Positions 4,127 through 16,969 of a stretch of DNA of 22,246 nucleotides are shown here, one piece after another. The notes beneath the pieces are model-generated. The model saw only the letters and a program-made list of their open reading frames with translations, was not told where the DNA came from and did no database searches. Position 1 is the stretch's first letter. Every line of letters begins with the position of its first letter. The position numbers and the translations under genes are program-made. The stretch comes from a virus, in IMG/VR virus record IMGVR_UViG_3300021335_000102, positions 1 to 22,246 of that record. The stretch is one strand, 5' to 3'.

Positions 4127-4259
4127 GCAACCTTGGTTATACACAGAAGAAGAGTTGACTTATATGCGTAAAGCAAAGAAGTCGGCAAAGCAGCAACTAA
4201 AACAAAAGCACATGAGGAAGAATGACAGTAAGACTGATTCAAGCAACACCGAATCCTGA
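4083..4259 (+). CDS. Basic hypothetical protein, 58 aa
   Basis: ATG at 4083, TGA at 4257-4259. It is highly basic: Lys and Arg make up about a third of the chain, with repeated KKAL, RKAKKSAKQQ and KQKHMRKN segments that suggest a nucleic-acid-binding helix. It overlaps the upstream gene by 44 bases and thyX by 38 bases, and GAGG lies a few bases upstream of its start. A TATAAT with a TGG extension at 4054-4062 could be a weak promoter for it. No family is recognised. Confidence 0.6.
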   Translation: MRLKDTIRLAKKALKQPWLYTEEELTYMRKAKKSAKQQLKQKHMRKNDSKTDSSNTES

Positions 4260-4857
4260 AGAGAACATGGCGTATATTGCTCGTGTGAGCAATCCTGCCA
4301 ACCAAGAAAATCCCAACTATGCCAAGTTGTTGGGTTACTGCATTAAGCACAATCACTGGTCTGTGTTTGAACAGAGTTTTATGACTCTGGAGATTGAGAC
4401 TACTCGTGGTTTGGCAGCTCAGATTTTGCGCCACCGTTCGTTCACATATCAAGAGTTTTCGCAACGTTATGCTGATTCTTCCCTACTCTCGGAGACGATC
4501 CCTCTCCCTGAACTTCGTAGGCAGGACACCAAGAATCGTCAGAATTCTATTGATGACATTTCTGAGGAGACCAAGCAAAAGTATGAAACATTGATCAGGG
4601 ATCACTTCAAGGATGCAATGGCATTGTATCAAACGATGCTTGATGAAGGAATCGCAAAGGAATGTGCTCGTTTTGTGCTTCCTCTGGCAACTCCGACCAA
4701 AATCTACATGAGTGGTTCCTGCCGTTCTTGGATCCACTACATTAATCTGCGTTCTGCCAATGGAACTCAGAGGGAACACATGGACATTGCTCTAGAGTGT
4801 AAAGAGATCTTCAAGGGAGTTTTCCCCTCCGTTGCTGAAGCTCTGGAGTGGGTCTAA
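4222..4857 (+). CDS. thyX: Flavin-dependent thymidylate synthase ThyX
   Basis: A 211-residue protein of normal ThyX length. The signature RHRx7S is present as RHRSFTYQEFS at residues 70-80, followed by QRYAD, and the C-terminal half has the conserved Arg-Ser-Trp-Ile-His-Tyr-Ile stretch and the Gln-Arg-Glu-His block near residue 186. The enzyme makes dTMP from dUMP with FAD, NADPH and methylene-tetrahydrofolate, without needing dihydrofolate reductase. ThyX replaces the T4 td enzyme in many cyanophages and supports genome synthesis. The start ATG lies inside the 58-aa gene, with AGGAAG just upstream. It ends at a TAA that is part of a CTAAATA motif. Confidence 0.96.
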   Translation: MTVRLIQATPNPEENMAYIARVSNPANQENPNYAKLLGYCIKHNHWSVFEQSFMTLEIETTRGLAAQILRHRSFTYQEFSQRYADSSLLSETIPLPELRRQDTKNRQNSIDDISEETKQKYETLIRDHFKDAMALYQTMLDEGIAKECARFVLPLATPTKIYMSGSCRSWIHYINLRSANGTQREHMDIALECKEIFKGVFPSVAEALEWV

Positions 4858-5137: not shown

Positions 5138-5896
5138 ATGCCAAGAAAGAGAAAGTCTACTGATGCTTCACCCGTTGGTGCTGGTTATACAGCAAAGCAA
5201 ATGAAACGAAAGAAGCCTATCAACCAAGATTTACTGGTTGATATTGAACCTTTAACTGAAAACCAAAGAAAGTTTTTTGCCGCATACGAAAAAGGTCAAA
5301 ATTCATTCTTATATGGATGTGCTGGAACGGGTAAAACCTTTATTGCGTTATACAATGCTCTGAAAGACGTTCTCAACGAGTACACTCCTTATAACAAGAT
5401 TTACATCATTCGTTCTCTGGTAGCAACTAGAGAAATTGGTTTCCTCCCTGGTGACCACGAAGATAAATCAGCACTTTACCAGATTCCTTATAAGAATATG
5501 GTCAAGTACATGTTTGAGATGCCTACTGATGCTGATTTTGAGATGCTGTATGGCAATCTCAAGGCACAGGAAACAATTAGTTTCTGGTCTACGTCATTTG
5601 TTCGTGGAACTACTTTTGATGATGCGATTCTTATCGTTGATGAGTGCCAAAACTTGAATTTTCATGAACTTGATAGTATAATTACACGAGTGGGTGATAA
5701 CTCTAAAATTATGTTCTGTGGTGATGCCACCCAAACCGACCTCACCAAATCTTATGAGAAGAATGGAATCCTTGATTTCATGAAAATCATTGAGCAAATG
5801 GAATCTTTCAATATCGTCGAATTCGACACCGATGACATTGTTCGTTCTGGTCTGGTTAAAGAATACCTTGTTAAGAAACTGGCACTAGGATTTTGA
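5138..5896 (+). CDS. phoH: PhoH-like ATPase
   Basis: A 252-residue P-loop ATPase with AAGGAA just before the ATG. The Walker A motif GCAGTGKT is at residues 60-67, the Walker B ILIVDE at 164-169, and a GDATQTD motif at 195-201, all typical of PhoH. The N-terminal 35 residues are basic and disordered-looking. PhoH is one of the most common genes in cyanophages. In bacteria it belongs to the phosphate regulon and related proteins act on RNA, but its role in phages is not settled. The stop overlaps the exonuclease start (TGATG), so the two are coupled. Confidence 0.95.
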   Translation: MPRKRKSTDASPVGAGYTAKQMKRKKPINQDLLVDIEPLTENQRKFFAAYEKGQNSFLYGCAGTGKTFIALYNALKDVLNEYTPYNKIYIIRSLVATREIGFLPGDHEDKSALYQIPYKNMVKYMFEMPTDADFEMLYGNLKAQETISFWSTSFVRGTTFDDAILIVDECQNLNFHELDSIITRVGDNSKIMFCGDATQTDLTKSYEKNGILDFMKIIEQMESFNIVEFDTDDIVRSGLVKEYLVKKLALGF

Positions 5897-6585: not shown

Positions 6586-6829
6586 AAAAGTATTTGATCA
6601 AAAATTCCTCACTGCCACTACTTTTGCGATGGAAATCGAAAAGATTGTACAGAGGGAAGAAGATATGAACTACATAGATGCAATAGTTCACTTCTGTGAA
6701 GAGAACAACATTGAAGTTGAATCAGTGTCTAAGATTATTTCTAAACCACTGAAAGAAAAGATTAAGTGTGACGCACTTAAACTTAACTTCATGAAAAAAA
6801 CCTCCCGTGCTCGTTTACCTATTGATTGA
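6569..6829 (+). CDS. 33: gp33-like late-transcription co-activator
   Basis: An 86-residue protein that aligns by eye with T4 gp33. The segment AMEIEKIVQREEDMNYIDAI matches the T4 stretch around IIEKMVEEFGMSYLEA, and the following FCEENNIEVESVSKIISKPL matches LEENSIPETQFAKFIPSG. In T4, gp33 links RNA polymerase to the gp45 sliding clamp and activates late promoters together with sigma gp55. Position also fits, since T4 has 33 next to 59 and 32. The start overlaps the end of the exonuclease gene. The presence of T4-type late motifs before the structural genes here agrees with this role. Confidence 0.85.
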   Translation: MEQELKKVFDQKFLTATTFAMEIEKIVQREEDMNYIDAIVHFCEENNIEVESVSKIISKPLKEKIKCDALKLNFMKKTSRARLPID

Positions 6830-6831
6830 AA

Positions 6832-7770
6832 ATGTCAATGTATACAACTGGACCCATGGGAATCCAGATGCCAACTCAAATGATCAGAGTTGCTGGTGCT
6901 CAGATTCCCGTAGGAACTAATATTCAAGCAAATAAAGTTGAGATTCTCAAAGCTCTTGATTGGGCAAAGGAGAATGAAGTAGATCATCTTCTAACTCCAG
7001 AATGTGCTCTTTCTGGATATCTTGGTGGTTGGGAAGATGACATTGAAGAGATTAAAGATGCACTCAAAGAAATTGAAGAACATCAAGCAAAGTGTAATCT
7101 TTACCTTCATCTTGGCACAAACTTCGAAGAACAAGAGTCAAAGGGTCTTATTCGTCGGAATGAGATTAGACACTATCACAGGGAAGGTCATATCGTTGGT
7201 GCCACTTTCAAAACTTTTGTTTTGAATGAAATGGAACACGTTCTTGGAAGAGACCATGACCGTGATCCAGTTGTTGTCGTTGAGTTGATGGAAAGAACAG
7301 CAGATAGGTATCATGTTCCTGCTGCTGCCTCTCTCATCTGTAACGATCTCTGGGGTCATGGTGAGGCAAAAGAACCACCCATCACTAATAAGATTAAGGA
7401 AATGGGTCTGGATCTCATGTTCCATGCTACCAATGGTAGAAAGATGGAACTAGATGATCCTCAAATGATTGTCTTTGATTCTTGGCATGACGCATTCCTC
7501 AGAATGACTTCCATGAATACCCTGATTCCTATTCTCACTGTCGATTCTTGTACTGATTGGAGATGGGATGGTGATGAAGATGAGGTAACTCATTATCACA
7601 CCTCTAGTCAAAGTGGATTTATCGACTATAATGGATGGCAGACAGATGTTCCTCGTGTTGGTCGTCAGTATTTTTACTACGATCACGATGTAACACTGTC
7701 CCCGTATGAAAAGTTCCAGTATATGATGCAACTTCGTGAACAAGAACAAGCTTCCAGTGACTCCGTTTGA
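6832..7770 (+). CDS. Carbon-nitrogen hydrolase (nitrilase superfamily) protein
   Basis: 312 residues from ATG 6832; a TTG at 6826 and an ATG at 6838 are alternatives. The nitrilase-fold triad is recognisable: Glu57 in LLTPECALSGY, Lys127 in IVGATFKTFV and Cys170 in SLICNDLWG. The intervening beta-alpha-beta pattern and length are normal for the family, which hydrolyses nitriles, amides or carbamoyl compounds. The substrate cannot be read. The residues after the cysteine (NDLWG) differ from the commonest branches. It sits between gp33 and gp59, which are adjacent in T4, so it is an insertion of a metabolic gene in a replication cluster. Related genes are known in other cyanomyoviruses. Confidence 0.88.
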   Translation: MSMYTTGPMGIQMPTQMIRVAGAQIPVGTNIQANKVEILKALDWAKENEVDHLLTPECALSGYLGGWEDDIEEIKDALKEIEEHQAKCNLYLHLGTNFEEQESKGLIRRNEIRHYHREGHIVGATFKTFVLNEMEHVLGRDHDRDPVVVVELMERTADRYHVPAAASLICNDLWGHGEAKEPPITNKIKEMGLDLMFHATNGRKMELDDPQMIVFDSWHDAFLRMTSMNTLIPILTVDSCTDWRWDGDEDEVTHYHTSSQSGFIDYNGWQTDVPRVGRQYFYYDHDVTLSPYEKFQYMMQLREQEQASSDSV

Positions 7771-8347
7771 TTGCTATCAAACATATTTGTCATTGAAAAA
7801 CCACTTTACGAAAGATAAGTATGACTTCTTTCAGTATGGTGGTCGGACCAGAGCATCTGTCTCTGCGTTTAATAAACGTAAGGACAAATACTGGTTCGAA
7901 AAAATGTCCAGGCAAAAGAAAGACGAAGAAGTTCGTGACTACTTTGTGGCAAACTTTATTTCATCAGATTCCCCTGAAAAGATATGGATTGGAGAATTAA
8001 TAAAAGAAGGAGAAACCGAGTATCAAAACTGGCGCAAAAGGACGCAGAGTTTGAGTTACTTGTTCAGAGAACAATCCGAAGAATTGCTATCGTCGAACGG
8101 ATTAGAGACACTTTTCGATTGTTCCACGGGTCATCCAATTCTCCTGAAAAAGTATCTTGGTGGAAAGGTATCACTAGAAACTTTAGTGATCTATGACAAA
8201 ATATTCGGGTTCAGAAAACGGTTTGACAAACAACTGAATGATCCCATCTGGGGTTCGGTTTCCCTCAAAATCAAGAAATACGAACCCTTTCTAAATATCG
8301 ATGTGCCAAAGCACAAACAAATCCTGAGGAGTATGATCTGTGAGTGA
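7736..8347 (+). CDS. 59: gp59-like loader of the gp41 replicative helicase
   Basis: Up to 203 residues if the GTG at 7736 is used; a GTG at 7757 is possible. No ATG is available near the expected N-terminus. The segment KNHFTKDKYDFFQYGG ... AFNKRKDKYWFEKMSRQKK parallels the T4 gp59 N-terminal domain (KQHMNGKYDVIKYN ... YQKRRDKYFFQKLSEKYK). The C-terminal IWGSVSLKIKKYEPFLNID parallels LVWNNYSIKLKAYRKILNID. gp59 binds fork DNA and gp32 and loads helicase gp41 during recombination-dependent replication. The gene overlaps the nitrilase gene by 35 bases and the next gene by 8, and stands close to gp32 as in T4. Confidence 0.92.
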   Translation: MNKNKLPVTPFDCYQTYLSLKNHFTKDKYDFFQYGGRTRASVSAFNKRKDKYWFEKMSRQKKDEEVRDYFVANFISSDSPEKIWIGELIKEGETEYQNWRKRTQSLSYLFREQSEELLSSNGLETLFDCSTGHPILLKKYLGGKVSLETLVIYDKIFGFRKRFDKQLNDPIWGSVSLKIKKYEPFLNIDVPKHKQILRSMICE

Positions 8348-8717: not shown

Positions 8718-9653
8718 ATGTCATTCGCAAATCTCAAAAAGCAGTCCTCTCTGGGTTCCCTGACCTCCAAACTGGTCAAGGAAGTTGAGAAGATGAACAG
8801 CAATGGTGGTTCTGGAGATGATCGTCTCTGGAAGCCCGAAGTAGATAAAGCAGGTAACGGGTATGCTGTCGTCCGTTTCCTTCCTGCTCCCGAAGGGGAA
8901 GAACTGCCTTGGGCAAAGATGTACACCCATGCCTTCCAAGGTCCTGGTGGTTGGTACATCGAGAACTCTCTGACTACTCTTGGTCAGAAGGATCCTGTGT
9001 CTGAACTGAACTCCCAGCTGTGGAACAGTGGGGTTGATTCTGACAAGGAAGTGGCACGTAAGCAGAAACGCAAACTGTCCTACTACAGCAACATCTATGT
9101 TGTGAAGGATCCCACCAATCCTCACAATGAAGGCAAGGTGTTCCTGTTCAAGTATGGTAAGAAGATCTTCGACAAGATCATGTCTGCCATGCAACCTGAG
9201 TTTGAAGACGAAGATCCCATCAACCCCTTCGATTTCTGGCAGGGTGCGGACTTCAAGATCAAGATCAAGAAGGTTGCAGGATACTGGAACTATGACTCCA
9301 GTGAGTTTGCCCGTCCTGGCACTTTGGGTGATCTCGAAGACTCCGAACTGGAAGAGCTCTGGAAGAAAGAGTATTCTCTTGCAGAACTCACCGCTGCAGA
9401 CCAGTTCAAGTCTTACGATGATCTGAAGAAGCGTCTGGACTATGTTCTGGGTAACACTCCTTCTCGTCGTCGTGTGGATGAAGAAGTTGAGAACGAAGAT
9501 GATGACCGTGGTTCGTATACTCCTGACTTCGGTGCTCGTTCGAAACCCGTTCCCCAAGACCTGAAGGATGAACTTGCCTCTCTGAGTTCCTCTTCTAGCA
9601 GTGATGAAGAAGACGATACTCTGAGTTACTTCCAGAAGTTAGCAGAGTTCTGA
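8718..9653 (+). CDS. 32: gp32 single-stranded DNA-binding protein
   Basis: 311 residues. The N-terminal basic patch KKQSS at 7-11 resembles the T4 LAST motif (KRKST) for cooperative binding. The core follows T4 gp32 closely: GPGGWYIENS, SYYSNIYVVKDPTNP, EGKVFLFKYGKKIFDKI, FWQGADFKIKIKKVAGYWNYD. The C-terminal tail is acidic with a Ser run (SSSSSSDEEDD) that recruits other replication proteins in T4. The protein has no cysteine at all, so the T4 zinc site (one His, three Cys) is lost. Codons are noticeably richer in C/G-ending forms (AAG, CTG, TCC) than in the neighbouring baseplate genes, as expected for a highly expressed gene. A strong terminator follows. Confidence 0.96.
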   Translation: MSFANLKKQSSLGSLTSKLVKEVEKMNSNGGSGDDRLWKPEVDKAGNGYAVVRFLPAPEGEELPWAKMYTHAFQGPGGWYIENSLTTLGQKDPVSELNSQLWNSGVDSDKEVARKQKRKLSYYSNIYVVKDPTNPHNEGKVFLFKYGKKIFDKIMSAMQPEFEDEDPINPFDFWQGADFKIKIKKVAGYWNYDSSEFARPGTLGDLEDSELEELWKKEYSLAELTAADQFKSYDDLKKRLDYVLGNTPSRRRVDEEVENEDDDRGSYTPDFGARSKPVPQDLKDELASLSSSSSSDEEDDTLSYFQKLAEF

Positions 9654-13016: not shown

Positions 13017-13736
13017 ATGGCTTTACCAAAAATCGATGCACCTACTTACGAACTGACTCTTCCTTCTTCTGGTAGAAAAATTAAGTACAGACCTTTCCTG
13101 GTGAAAGAAGAGAAACTCCTCATCATTGCCATGGAAAGTGAAGACATGGGACAAATTGCTGGTGCGATTAAACAAGTTCTAAGTAACTGTATTATCACTA
13201 GGGGAATTAAGATCGATAAACTCTCTACTTTTGATATTGAGTATCTGTTCCTCAATGTAAGAGGTAAGTCTGTCGGTGAAAGTGTAGAAGTTCTTCTCAC
13301 TTGTCCCGATGATGGAGAAACTCAGGTTCCTGTCACCATTGCTTTGAGTGATATTCAGGTTCAGAAAGATCCAGAGCATACTGATACTATCAAATTGAAC
13401 GATGAGTATTATTTGAAGATGAGATATCCTTCTCTAGAGGAGTTTGTCAAAGAGAACTTTGAATCTGAGGGTATTGAGCAAATCGAACAATCTTTTGAGA
13501 TGATTGCTAAGTGTGTCGAACAAGTATATAATGAAGAGGAATCTTGGGCTGGTTCTGATCATACAGAAGAAGAACTCCTAGAGTTTGTAGAGGGTCTTGG
13601 GTCTTCTCAGTTTAAAGATATTGAGAAGTTCTTCTCCACAATGCCTAAACTGAGTCACACTGTTACCATCAAGAATCCTAATACTGGTGTAGAATCTGAT
13701 GTAGTCGTTGAGGGACTGGCAAGTTTTTTCAACTAG
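13017..13736 (+). CDS. gp26/gp51-family baseplate hub (T4_baseplate) protein
   Basis: 239 residues of the T4_baseplate family. Marks include PTYELTLPSSGRKIKYRPF and KEEKLLIIAMES at the start, and TFDIEYLFLNVRGKSVGESV around residues 72-91. T4 has two such proteins, hub subunit gp26 (208 aa) and assembly catalyst gp51 (249 aa), and cyanophages annotate either name; length and the following gene order (small ORF, tape measure, gp27) favour gp51. The gene stops at TAG 13734-13736, but the last codons read T-TTT-TTC, a canonical -1 slippery heptamer that would place ribosomes in the frame of the next gene. The protein may therefore be a tail chaperone of the G/GT type. Confidence 0.82.
   Translation: MALPKIDAPTYELTLPSSGRKIKYRPFLVKEEKLLIIAMESEDMGQIAGAIKQVLSNCIITRGIKIDKLSTFDIEYLFLNVRGKSVGESVEVLLTCPDDGETQVPVTIALSDIQVQKDPEHTDTIKLNDEYYLKMRYPSLEEFVKENFESEGIEQIEQSFEMIAKCVEQVYNEEESWAGSDHTEEELLEFVEGLGSSQFKDIEKFFSTMPKLSHTVTIKNPNTGVESDVVVEGLASFFN
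13724..13730 (+). other. Candidate -1 ribosomal frameshift site (T TTT TTC)
   Basis: The heptamer occupies codons 237-238 of the gp26/51-like gene in the correct X-XXY-YYZ phase. A -1 slip gives TTT TTT CAA CTA GGT ATG and continues in the frame of the 60-aa gene at 13739, producing a 301-residue fusion. The zero-frame stop is one codon downstream, as is common for such sites. No strong downstream hairpin or upstream pairing was found by eye. It could also be a chance T-run. Confidence 0.45.
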
Positions 13737-13738
13737 GT

Positions 13739-13921
13739 ATGGCTCATGAAAACCTTGAGTCATACTATAAAGTTAATTTTGCCTTGATTCAGCATCATAA
13801 ATATAGCTTGACGGAGCTTGAAAATATGATTCCTTGGGAAAGGGAAATTTATATCACTCTTCTCAAGCAACATATTGAAGATGAGAAATTGAGAGATCAA
13901 CAGGCTAACGGTGTATCTTAA
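13739..13921 (+). CDS. Small protein, possible tail chaperone extension, 60 aa
   Basis: A separate ATG at 13739 gives 60 residues, or the frame may be entered from upstream by a -1 shift. The ribosome site is poor (only AGG three bases before the ATG). The segment YSLTELENMIPWEREIYITLLKQHIEDEK resembles the C-terminal extensions of phage tail assembly chaperones, which typically have a Pro-(Trp/Tyr)-(Glu)-x-Glu-Ile-Tyr helix. The stop overlaps the tape-measure start (TAATG). In lambda-type phages the chaperone genes also precede the tape measure. The chaperone role is inference. Confidence 0.7.
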   Translation: MAHENLESYYKVNFALIQHHKYSLTELENMIPWEREIYITLLKQHIEDEKLRDQQANGVS

Positions 13922-15588
13922 TGGCGATCAATCGTAGAGCACTAATGGGTGAGGGTGGTCAAAGATCTGGGACCATCAGTGCTAGAGGAGTTCGCTCTGT
14001 TACTACGAAGGATAGCATTGCACTGACAAAGACACTCAAATCCATTAACATGAATTTGGTGTCTATTAATAAGTTATTACAGAAAAATGCCTTAGATGAA
14101 TCGAAAAGGCAAGAAGAATCTACTAGGAAGAAAAGAAAAGCAGAAGAAGGTTTAAGAAGAGAATCAAAAGAATCTGGGTTGGAGAAGAGTGGTAAATCTC
14201 TTCTCATGGGTGTCGGTGGTGTCATAGGTAAATTAAAAGATACTCTTGTTAATACTTCAAAAGGTATTCTAGGTAAGATATTAGACGTAGCAAAACCGTT
14301 TATTAAATTCTTTACCCTGGGTTTTATTGGATGGTTTTCTGGTAAGGTAGCAAAGTGGTTTGATGAAAATAAAGAAGATAGAAGGAAGAAGATAAAATCT
14401 TTCATACCAAAGATACTGTCAGCACTAACTATTGCTGGTGGTGTCTTACTTGCTATTAAATTTGGTATTCCAGTCATTATGGGATTGATTGGAACCATTG
14501 TTGGTATGATTCCTGTCGTTATTGGAGCACTATTAAGTCCAGCAACCTGGGTTGGATTGCTTGCCACTGGAGCAGCTGTTTTTGCTTTTGAATTGGGTTC
14601 TGGTCTCAAGGAAGCAATCGATCCTGGTCAGAGAGCTAGAGAAAGAATCAGATCTCTAACTGGTGCTAGGGATTTTACAACTGAAAGTCTTGATTTAGAA
14701 ACTAAGAGTAGCAAGATACAAGGTCAAGGTGGAAGAACTCAACGTGAATTTGTCAAGTTGGGTGATAGATACTATCTGAAGAGAGATATTGACAAGTTAT
14801 TCCAGTCTCAAGATGAATTTGATCAGCAGATCTATTTCTATAAGATGGGAAGACAAGGTGCCACTAGAGTTGGTGGTGAGCAAGTTAATCTCCAGACCCT
14901 TAGAGAAGGTAAAGTCTTATCTGGTATAACCAGAGAACTCAGATCTAACATTATTGACCAGAGAATTAAGAGCAGATTAGGTGTTGCTTATAAAGAGTAC
15001 GCAAAACAAAGAAATGAAATTTTGATGCGTGAGGAGAGGATAAAAGATAAGCAAAAGTTAATGCAACAATACCCAGACAAAGAAGGTACTCTTACAAAGG
15101 AAATAGAAGATTTACGCAAGGAGATTGCTGGATTCCAAAATAATATGGAATTTGCTGGTAAAGAAGTTACCAGACTTTATGCAAATCTAGATGCCCAGTC
15201 AAAAGAAAAATTAAGAACAGTAGCGGGAATAACCGAGAAGAACTTACTCTCTAGTTTTGCATTAACCGAGTCCGAAACTTTATTCCAAGCAAAGAAAGCA
15301 GGTGCTCAATTACAGAGTGCCGTAATGGGTGCTGCTGATCCATATCTAAGGCAAGCAACATCGATGATGACAGGTCTCAAAGCAGACTTGTCTGCTAAAA
15401 TCGATAATCTTTTTGATGGTGGATCAAAGGTCGATGTGAACTTAAATATTAAACAGACGATGCCAGATATGGCATATGATGATCCTACAGAAATTCCTGT
15501 TCCAGGTAATATGAGTCCTTATGATCTGACAAGTCCCTGGTTACAACATGCTACAAAGGTTTATGGTGTTTCTCCTGTAGGTGTATAA
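13921..15588 (+). CDS. 29: Tape-measure / hub protein, gp29-like
   Basis: 555 residues, near the length of T4 gp29 (590). Residues 30-90 are basic and helical (RKKRKAEEGLRRESKESG). A hydrophobic block from about 129 to 226 includes several possible membrane segments (IPVIMGLIGTIVGMIPVVIG), which is typical of tape measures that may insert in the host membrane on DNA entry. Residues 300-440 form long charged helices or coiled coil. The C-terminus is Pro-rich. Sequence identity to T4 gp29 is not obvious by eye, so the name rests on gene order (51-like, tape measure, 27-like) and architecture. Confidence 0.65.
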   Translation: MAINRRALMGEGGQRSGTISARGVRSVTTKDSIALTKTLKSINMNLVSINKLLQKNALDESKRQEESTRKKRKAEEGLRRESKESGLEKSGKSLLMGVGGVIGKLKDTLVNTSKGILGKILDVAKPFIKFFTLGFIGWFSGKVAKWFDENKEDRRKKIKSFIPKILSALTIAGGVLLAIKFGIPVIMGLIGTIVGMIPVVIGALLSPATWVGLLATGAAVFAFELGSGLKEAIDPGQRARERIRSLTGARDFTTESLDLETKSSKIQGQGGRTQREFVKLGDRYYLKRDIDKLFQSQDEFDQQIYFYKMGRQGATRVGGEQVNLQTLREGKVLSGITRELRSNIIDQRIKSRLGVAYKEYAKQRNEILMREERIKDKQKLMQQYPDKEGTLTKEIEDLRKEIAGFQNNMEFAGKEVTRLYANLDAQSKEKLRTVAGITEKNLLSSFALTESETLFQAKKAGAQLQSAVMGAADPYLRQATSMMTGLKADLSAKIDNLFDGGSKVDVNLNIKQTMPDMAYDDPTEIPVPGNMSPYDLTSPWLQHATKVYGVSPVGV

Positions 15589-15589
15589 G

Positions 15590-16969
15590 ATGATTATTAA
15601 TCGTGCTCTCTACTCTAGTATTTCTACTAACCTCGTTTCGATGAGGAAGAATACTATTGCCATCAGAAAAACCTTAATCAAGAGCAATAAGCAAAAACAA
15701 TCACTTAGAAAAAGTGACGAAAGAAGTGCTGAATTAGTAGAGCAGAACAAGAGAAGAGAACTTCAAGAGCAAAAACAAGAGAGTAAAAAGGCATTTAGTA
15801 TGCCTAATTGGAGATTGAATCTTAAGAATCCTCTTAAGGGTTTTTCTATTCCAGGACTAGGTATCCTTGGTGGAGTTGTTTCTTTCTTTGCTTTTGGTCT
15901 ACTTGGATGGATGCTCAATCATCTTCCTAAAATTATAAAATCAATCAAAGATTTTCTTTATAGAGCAAGAAAGTTCTTAGAAATACTCACAGACTTTTGG
16001 GATATTGTAAAAGGATTTTTCCAGATAACTTTTGATGCTTTTGAATCTCTATACAACAAATTGGGATTTGGTGGCACCGAAGGTCTTGGTAAGGGTGACG
16101 ATGTAAAGGTGAAGGAAAGGTTGTCCATGTTAGTTGGTCAACTTAAAAAATTCATCCTGGAGCTTCCAAAAAGAATCACTGGTCTTGTTAGAGACTTGAT
16201 GGCTAAGAAAGCTGGTGGTGAAAATGAACCCACAGACGATACCACTGGAATCGAAGAATATGATCCTGAAAAGAAATATAAGGTAGGTGATATTGTCAAT
16301 AAGGAAGGTAAACTACGTCAATTTGATGGACTGGGATGGGCAGAACTAAAGGGATCTAAACTTGAGAGAGATATTCTCGCATTTAGACAAGCAAGAACAA
16401 AGTTCGGTGTCAGTAGTGAAAGACAGGCAACCGATACTTCCTTTAATCTTGCCATTCGTGAACTTAGAGGTGCTGCTGGTGGTTCTTCAATTAACCCACT
16501 TGCCGATGACTTAAGTTATCAAAACGTCCATAAAGGAAGGGCACACAAAGAGGGATATGGATTTGACGTTCCCATTGCTAACCAGACTCAAGCAAAGTTT
16601 GTTATAGAATTTTTCCGTTCTAGGGGGTATGAAACTATTCATGGTAGGGGTGAAGATCCTACTGGTGGTCACGATTTTCACGTTCACGTTCAGGCTCCAC
16701 ATGCAAAAGCAAAAGAGTTCTTAGCATCTTCTAGTCTTTCCCCAACCACGGTCACAAAAGTTTCTCCACCACCACTTCAAGAACCTGTAGATTATAATAT
16801 GGGTCCAAAGAGGGAAGTTATCAATAGAACTGTGGAAATCCCCATTCCTCCAGAGGTGTTAAATAGAGTTAAACAGAATCTTCAACCATCTGAAGAATAT
16901 TTCAATAGAGCGATGAATATTAAGATAGCCATCGATGGTGATGACGTAACCTCAGGATTGTTCGACTAA
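15590..16969 (+). CDS. Tape-measure-like hub protein with an M15-type peptidase domain
   Basis: 459 residues from ATG 15590, one base after the previous stop; a GTG at 15581 is an alternative. The N-terminus is basic and coiled, followed by a hydrophobic segment at 88-109 and amphipathic helices to about 205. Residues 224-255 look like a small beta domain (YKVGDIVNKEGKLRQFDGLGW). Residues 310-370 carry His319-x2-Gly-x3-Asp326 and then His361-Asp-Phe-His364-Val-His366, the zinc-site pattern of M15/VanY-type D,D- or L,D-peptidases. It might cut peptidoglycan during injection. The N-terminal half resembles the preceding protein, suggesting an old duplication. The family assignment is from motif only. 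Confidence 0.65.
   Translation: MIINRALYSSISTNLVSMRKNTIAIRKTLIKSNKQKQSLRKSDERSAELVEQNKRRELQEQKQESKKAFSMPNWRLNLKNPLKGFSIPGLGILGGVVSFFAFGLLGWMLNHLPKIIKSIKDFLYRARKFLEILTDFWDIVKGFFQITFDAFESLYNKLGFGGTEGLGKGDDVKVKERLSMLVGQLKKFILELPKRITGLVRDLMAKKAGGENEPTDDTTGIEEYDPEKKYKVGDIVNKEGKLRQFDGLGWAELKGSKLERDILAFRQARTKFGVSSERQATDTSFNLAIRELRGAAGGSSINPLADDLSYQNVHKGRAHKEGYGFDVPIANQTQAKFVIEFFRSRGYETIHGRGEDPTGGHDFHVHVQAPHAKAKEFLASSSLSPTTVTKVSPPPLQEPVDYNMGPKREVINRTVEIPIPPEVLNRVKQNLQPSEEYFNRAMNIKIAIDGDDVTSGLFD

Follow-up and report, generated by a model that had tools for sequence, protein, structure and literature searches.

An older review describes the general mechanism of G/GT frameshifting and treats it as a conserved trait of long-tailed phages, 'except T4' (PMC5009743). 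Tail assembly chaperones of T4-like phages were identified by Vladimirov, Gautam and Davidson (2022, Virology 566:9–15; cited in PMC10885494 and PMC12846349). As cited in the PRFect paper, that study describes T4-like phages in which a short gene is accompanied by a longer, fused one (PMC10885494); as cited in a 2025 paper, it describes poly-T −1 frameshift signals in T4-like TAC-N genes (PMC12846349). A short cyanophage gp51 was noted by Sullivan et al. (2010; PMC3037559), and gp51 was thought to be missing in Aeh1.

To the extent that the citing papers describe the 2022 study, the locus analyzed here belongs to the same gene family and has the same short and long forms. Chaperone frameshifts of this kind have been on record for T4-like phages since 2022. 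The abstract of that study reportedly agrees with a poly-T frameshift account. An earlier note on this DNA had held that T4-type phages are not generally described as using such a frameshift; the 2022 study, as cited, contradicts that statement, poly-T sites included, and the note's claim of novelty therefore fails. The locus also resembles lambda gpG/gpGT, in which the short chaperone gains an extension by −1 frameshifting and lies upstream of the tape-measure gene (a positional assignment here). The slippery sequence of lambda differs from the one described below, and the likeness is drawn from the layout.

The window, meaning the whole stretch of DNA that was analyzed, is the 22,246-base IMG/VR virus record IMGVR_UViG_3300021335_000102 of a T4-like cyanophage, and the phages most closely related to it are myoviruses of Prochlorococcus and Synechococcus. 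It carries several genes usual in T4-like cyanophages: those for ThyX thymidylate synthase (4222–4857), a PhoH-like ATPase (5138–5896), the gp59 helicase loader (7736–8347), and the gp32 single-strand DNA binding protein (8718–9653). A 314-aa ORF at 6826–7770 looked nitrilase-like by eye (CNDLWGHGEA) and had no match in Pfam at E 0.01; the 320-aa product of 183–1145 has a glycine-rich domain (PF21722) and is probably a structural or fiber protein. The features of the chaperone locus are as follows.

13017..13736, + strand: gp26-like gene, 239 aa (Pfam T4_baseplate PF12322, PHROG 150); predicted short tail assembly chaperone (TAC-N, G equivalent)
13710..13714, + strand: SD-like GAGGG, 9 nt upstream of the heptamer, seen in the sequence
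13724..13730, + strand: candidate slippery heptamer T_TTT_TTC, in phase X_XXY_YYZ, kept in relatives
13734..13736, + strand: zero-frame stop TAG, one codon past the heptamer
13737..13765, + strand: predicted hairpin of 10 bp (13737–13746 with 13756–13765) with a 9-nt loop and a 6-nt spacer, from folding z and covariation
13731..13921, + strand: −1 frame extension, QLG plus the 60-aa ORF (ORF2) at 13739–13921; predicted domain that the long form gains (TAC-NC, GT equivalent)
13921..15588, + strand: 555-aa ORF directly downstream; probable tape-measure protein, by position

The 555-aa ORF is probably the tape-measure gene, an assignment made from its position. Its product has hydrophobic segments at residues 160–216, and the ORFs that occupy this place in phiGrn1, Ochrobactrum phage OC, and phiN3 matched tape-measure PHROGs. 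The 555-aa ORF and the consecutive 462-aa ORF (15581–16969) are fast-evolving, with weak N-terminal similarity (E 0.006), and neither had a match in the phage collection. Either of the two could be the tape measure.

The slippery heptamer and its conservation

The gp26-like ORF ends with the codons AGT TTT TTC AAC TAG, so that T_TTT_TTC lies in X_XXY_YYZ phase, and a −1 slip there would lead through CAA CTA GGT ATG GCT CAT into the 60-aa ORF. In the earlier note the heptamer was in phase and one codon ahead of the TAG, and the −1 frame was joined through CAA CTA GGT to the small ORF; those coordinates, phases, and path were right. Among the 5,375 codons of the 19 window ORFs, this was the only in-phase T_TTT_TT[C/T/A]. 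That single occurrence, together with retention of the heptamer in all relatives with the single-gene form except two, rules out a chance heptamer.

Conservation was scored in IMG/VR relatives of several depths. The close set held 80 loci of 63–100% identity, from which 61 non-redundant members were taken. In all 80 the heptamer was present, and ORF2 was always in the −1 frame where the contig held it (one contig, L024, ends within ORF2); the zero-frame stop varied among TAG, TGA, and TAA. All of 16 distant loci and 79 informative diverse loci likewise had T TTT TT(C/T/A). Altogether the junction carried it in 175/175 informative relatives, down to ~30% protein identity, although these loci share ancestry and the counts are not of independent events. 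Six diverse loci had at first been scored as lacking the heptamer: four have T TTT TTA, a change of zero-frame Phe to Leu that retains slipperiness; one (L165) is cut by the contig end; and the sixth (L193, 2700–2735) retains the heptamer and has its zero-frame stop 8 codons further on, giving a longer short form.

Named phages gave similar results. T TTT TTC was found in 13/13 cyanophage isolates examined, which is the comparison among cyanomyoviruses proposed in the earlier note, and in Aeh1, Aeromonas phage 65, YB07, and phiGrn1; phiN3 and Ochrobactrum phage OC have T TTT TTT. The heptamer is genuinely absent in two Vibrio phages, 1.244.A (L084) and D503 (L090), which have the same gene pair with a TAATG overlap and no canonical heptamer. 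These two may have switched to reinitiation or to another site; a scan of viral contigs with the 1.244.A protein found nothing. With these two phages set apart, the expectation that the heptamer would be kept where the genes are kept held for the single-gene form, and the small gene was never found in a frame relation other than −1.

In the 61 non-redundant members of the close set, TTT was the first Phe codon in all 61, the second was TTC in 60 and TTT in 1, and the preceding codon always ended in T, whether it encoded Ser, Ala, Asn, or Asp. Elsewhere in these genes, Phe-Phe pairs took the form T_TTT_TTY in 0/61. Conservation of Phe-Phe as amino acids only is ruled out by the T-ending preceding codon, whatever its residue, and is contradicted also by the four TTA loci and by the other Phe-Phe pairs.

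SD-like element and hairpin

Two further elements flank the heptamer, neither of which was in the earlier note. The Glu codon of the SD-like element was GAG in 49/61 relatives, compared with a 35% background (p 3e-13, uncorrected for relatedness). The anti-SD duplex at this element averaged −8.0 kcal/mol in the relatives vs −2.1 kcal/mol in the gene; for 75 more diverse loci the corresponding values were −5.9 and −1.4.

Downstream, the hairpin at 13737–13765 had a folding z of −2.9 in the window and a mean z of −3.4 over 59 relatives. Its covariation score was 0.160 vs 0.056 ± 0.008 for shuffled alignments, and 0/500 shuffles reached it; relatedness of the loci inflates covariation counts, but slid controls, in which relatedness was retained, gave at most 0.05. 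One pair of the stem appeared among relatives as UA (32), GC (14), AU (6), and GU (4). S-PM2 has a strong hairpin of different sequence in the same place (z −5.3). The hairpin is lineage-specific, being strong in the window's clade and weak or absent in others, among them S-T4, DSL-LC03, and Aeromonas phage 65; in the diverse set of 75 loci the mean z was −1.2, and z was below −2 in only 28%. In one sublineage (L028, L034, L047, L048) the outer hairpin pairs are broken and the heptamer is retained.

The frameshift signal of E. coli dnaX consists of an SD-like element, a slippery heptamer, and a hairpin in the same order as those in the window, although its site is A AAA AAG and the gene is a different one. 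The window has the spacing of such a cassette as well: its SD-like element lies 9 nt upstream, where ~10 nt is expected, and its covarying stem follows a 6-nt spacer, where 5–8 nt is expected. As stimulators of the candidate frameshift, the SD-like element and the covarying hairpin may be new to the literature.

Short and long forms

The gp26-like protein matched PF12322 at E 9e-75 (251.5 bits, against a cut-off of 24.5) and PHROG 150 at E 2e-82. An AF2 model of the short form had a pLDDT of 88. The best PDB match of model residues 1–96 was the HK97 tail assembly chaperone 2ob9 (gp13; Z 7.9, 84 residues, 4.0 Å), followed by the Bacillus structures 3fgx (Z 7.8) and YqbN 3klu (Z 7.3) and then a drop to Z 4.3; values of 7.3–7.9 are middling, and matches below Z 8 may arise from a commonly occurring arrangement. 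The 2ob9 structure belongs to the tail chaperone family by its title, and YqbN belongs there too. In a PDB-only Foldseek search no match had an E below 0.1, and PDB sequence searches with the gp26-like profile or T4 gp51 found no relative. As modeled, residues 1–96 of the short form have a tail-chaperone-like fold. The likeness to HK97 gp13 and YqbN is in this N-terminal domain; the window protein adds a C-terminal alpha/beta part outside the matches.

The 60-aa protein matched PHROG 634 (gp51-like) at E 5e-28. It also matched the final 40 positions of PHROG 150, to which the gp26-like protein itself belongs, and this implies that fused versions exist. The extension was homologous in 23 diverse loci with a gap-free junction, and its AF2 model was helical (pLDDT 81). 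These results, with the heptamer and the frame, support the earlier proposal, in which a −1 frameshift adds a chaperone-type extension to the gp26-like protein in the lambda G/GT layout.

Taking together the signal, its phase and conservation, the covarying hairpin, the homologous extension, and the chaperone-like fold, we are highly confident that the locus is a −1 frameshift cassette making a short/long pair of tail assembly chaperones; the slippage itself, its rate, and its role in tail assembly we infer. Most ribosomes would stop at the TAG at 13734–13736 and yield the 239-aa short chaperone. A minority would pause, owing to the upstream SD-like interaction and the downstream hairpin, and slip −1 on T_TTT_TTC, with the Phe-tRNAs on TTT and TTC re-pairing to TTT and TTT. 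Those ribosomes would read CAA CTA GGT ATG and onward to 13921, producing a long chaperone of ~300 residues with a helical C-terminal extension and the ending ...SFFQLGMAHENLESYYKVNF...NGVS. If gpG and gpGT of lambda are a guide, the coat on the tape-measure protein would consist of many short copies and a few long ones, with the extension recruiting tail tube subunits.

The start codon of ORF2 bears on the alternatives. In the first, both routes operate, with the frameshift fusion accompanied by some free ORF2 product wherever the ATG exists. The codon at 13739 is ATG in 58/61 close relatives, so in the window's clade it is conserved though frameshifting does not need it. The Met may, however, be retained because the ATG belongs to the hairpin stem, in which GTATGG pairs with TCATAC, and three loci (L033, L039, L054) have CTG or TTG instead. 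We consider this combination unlikely.

In the second, the locus makes two separate proteins, and ORF2 is expressed by termination-reinitiation at the ATG, 2 nt past the TAG, its product acting in trans. The same frequency of ATG would suit this arrangement, as would the TAATG or TGATG overlaps in phiGrn1, YB07, and Vibrio 1.244.A and the listing of ORF2 in databases as a separate gp51. The ORF, whose own ribosome site the earlier note had called poor, lacks one, however: its anti-SD duplex was 0.0 kcal/mol, and the mean in relatives was −0.9. With no SD and the ATG in the stem, independent initiation should be weak. Many relatives have no start codon at all; the opening 12 codons of the extension contained no ATG, GTG, or TTG in 14/26 diverse heptamer-bearing representatives and, in a second set, in 34/73 loci. 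The annotated gene start falls inside the conserved part of the extension in S-T4, S-RIM8, and S-H35, and the extension is left unannotated in Aeh1, DSL-LC03, ACG-2014e, and S-WAM1. Separate proteins would also leave the invariant heptamer unexplained, and T4 gp51 is a fusion. Reinitiation as the sole route is therefore very improbable.

Transcriptional slippage on the six-T run in place of ribosomal slippage is scarcely credible, because, although a homopolymer of 6–7 T is present in all site-bearing relatives, six T are few for slippage by a polymerase, the sites are invariably in X_XXY_YYZ phase, and the SD-like element and hairpin at ribosomal spacing point to translation.

T4 gp26 and gp51

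T4 gp26 consists of the PF12322 domain alone, whereas T4 gp51 has PF12322 and the homologous C-terminal extension in one frame, with full-length matches to PHROGs 150 and 634. When the fused T4 junction was aligned by eye with the junction predicted for the −1 frameshift product, VFKLLVNPDEIFTFYQINH against FFQLGMAHENLESYYKVNF, no gap was needed. The two T4 genes are separate and on opposite strands, whereas the window has one gene and a −1 extension. The heptamer was absent from the gp26 genes of T4-type phages that have a long gp51. The simplest reading of these sequences is that T4 swapped one frameshifting gene for two paralogues.

A fuller account, toward which we lean by a little, is that a T4-like/cyano-type ancestor made both chaperones by −1 frameshifting at T_TTT_TTN, a site kept down to ~30% identity. 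In the T4 branch a duplication would have made gp51 the permanent long form and left gp26 to lose the slippery site; the signal in the window's clade further includes the SD-like element and the covarying hairpin, which would block an independent ORF2 start, and this combination may be undescribed.

The predicted frameshift would account for two peculiarities of gp51. The 'gp51' of cyanophages and marine vibriophages looks ~200 residues short, and the gp26-like gene would supply the rest. In Aeh1, where gp51 appeared to be missing, the extension lacks a start codon and is unannotated, and again the gp26-like gene would provide the remainder. The entries named 'baseplate hub assembly catalyst' in many phage genomes are probably chaperone extensions and not separate enzymes.
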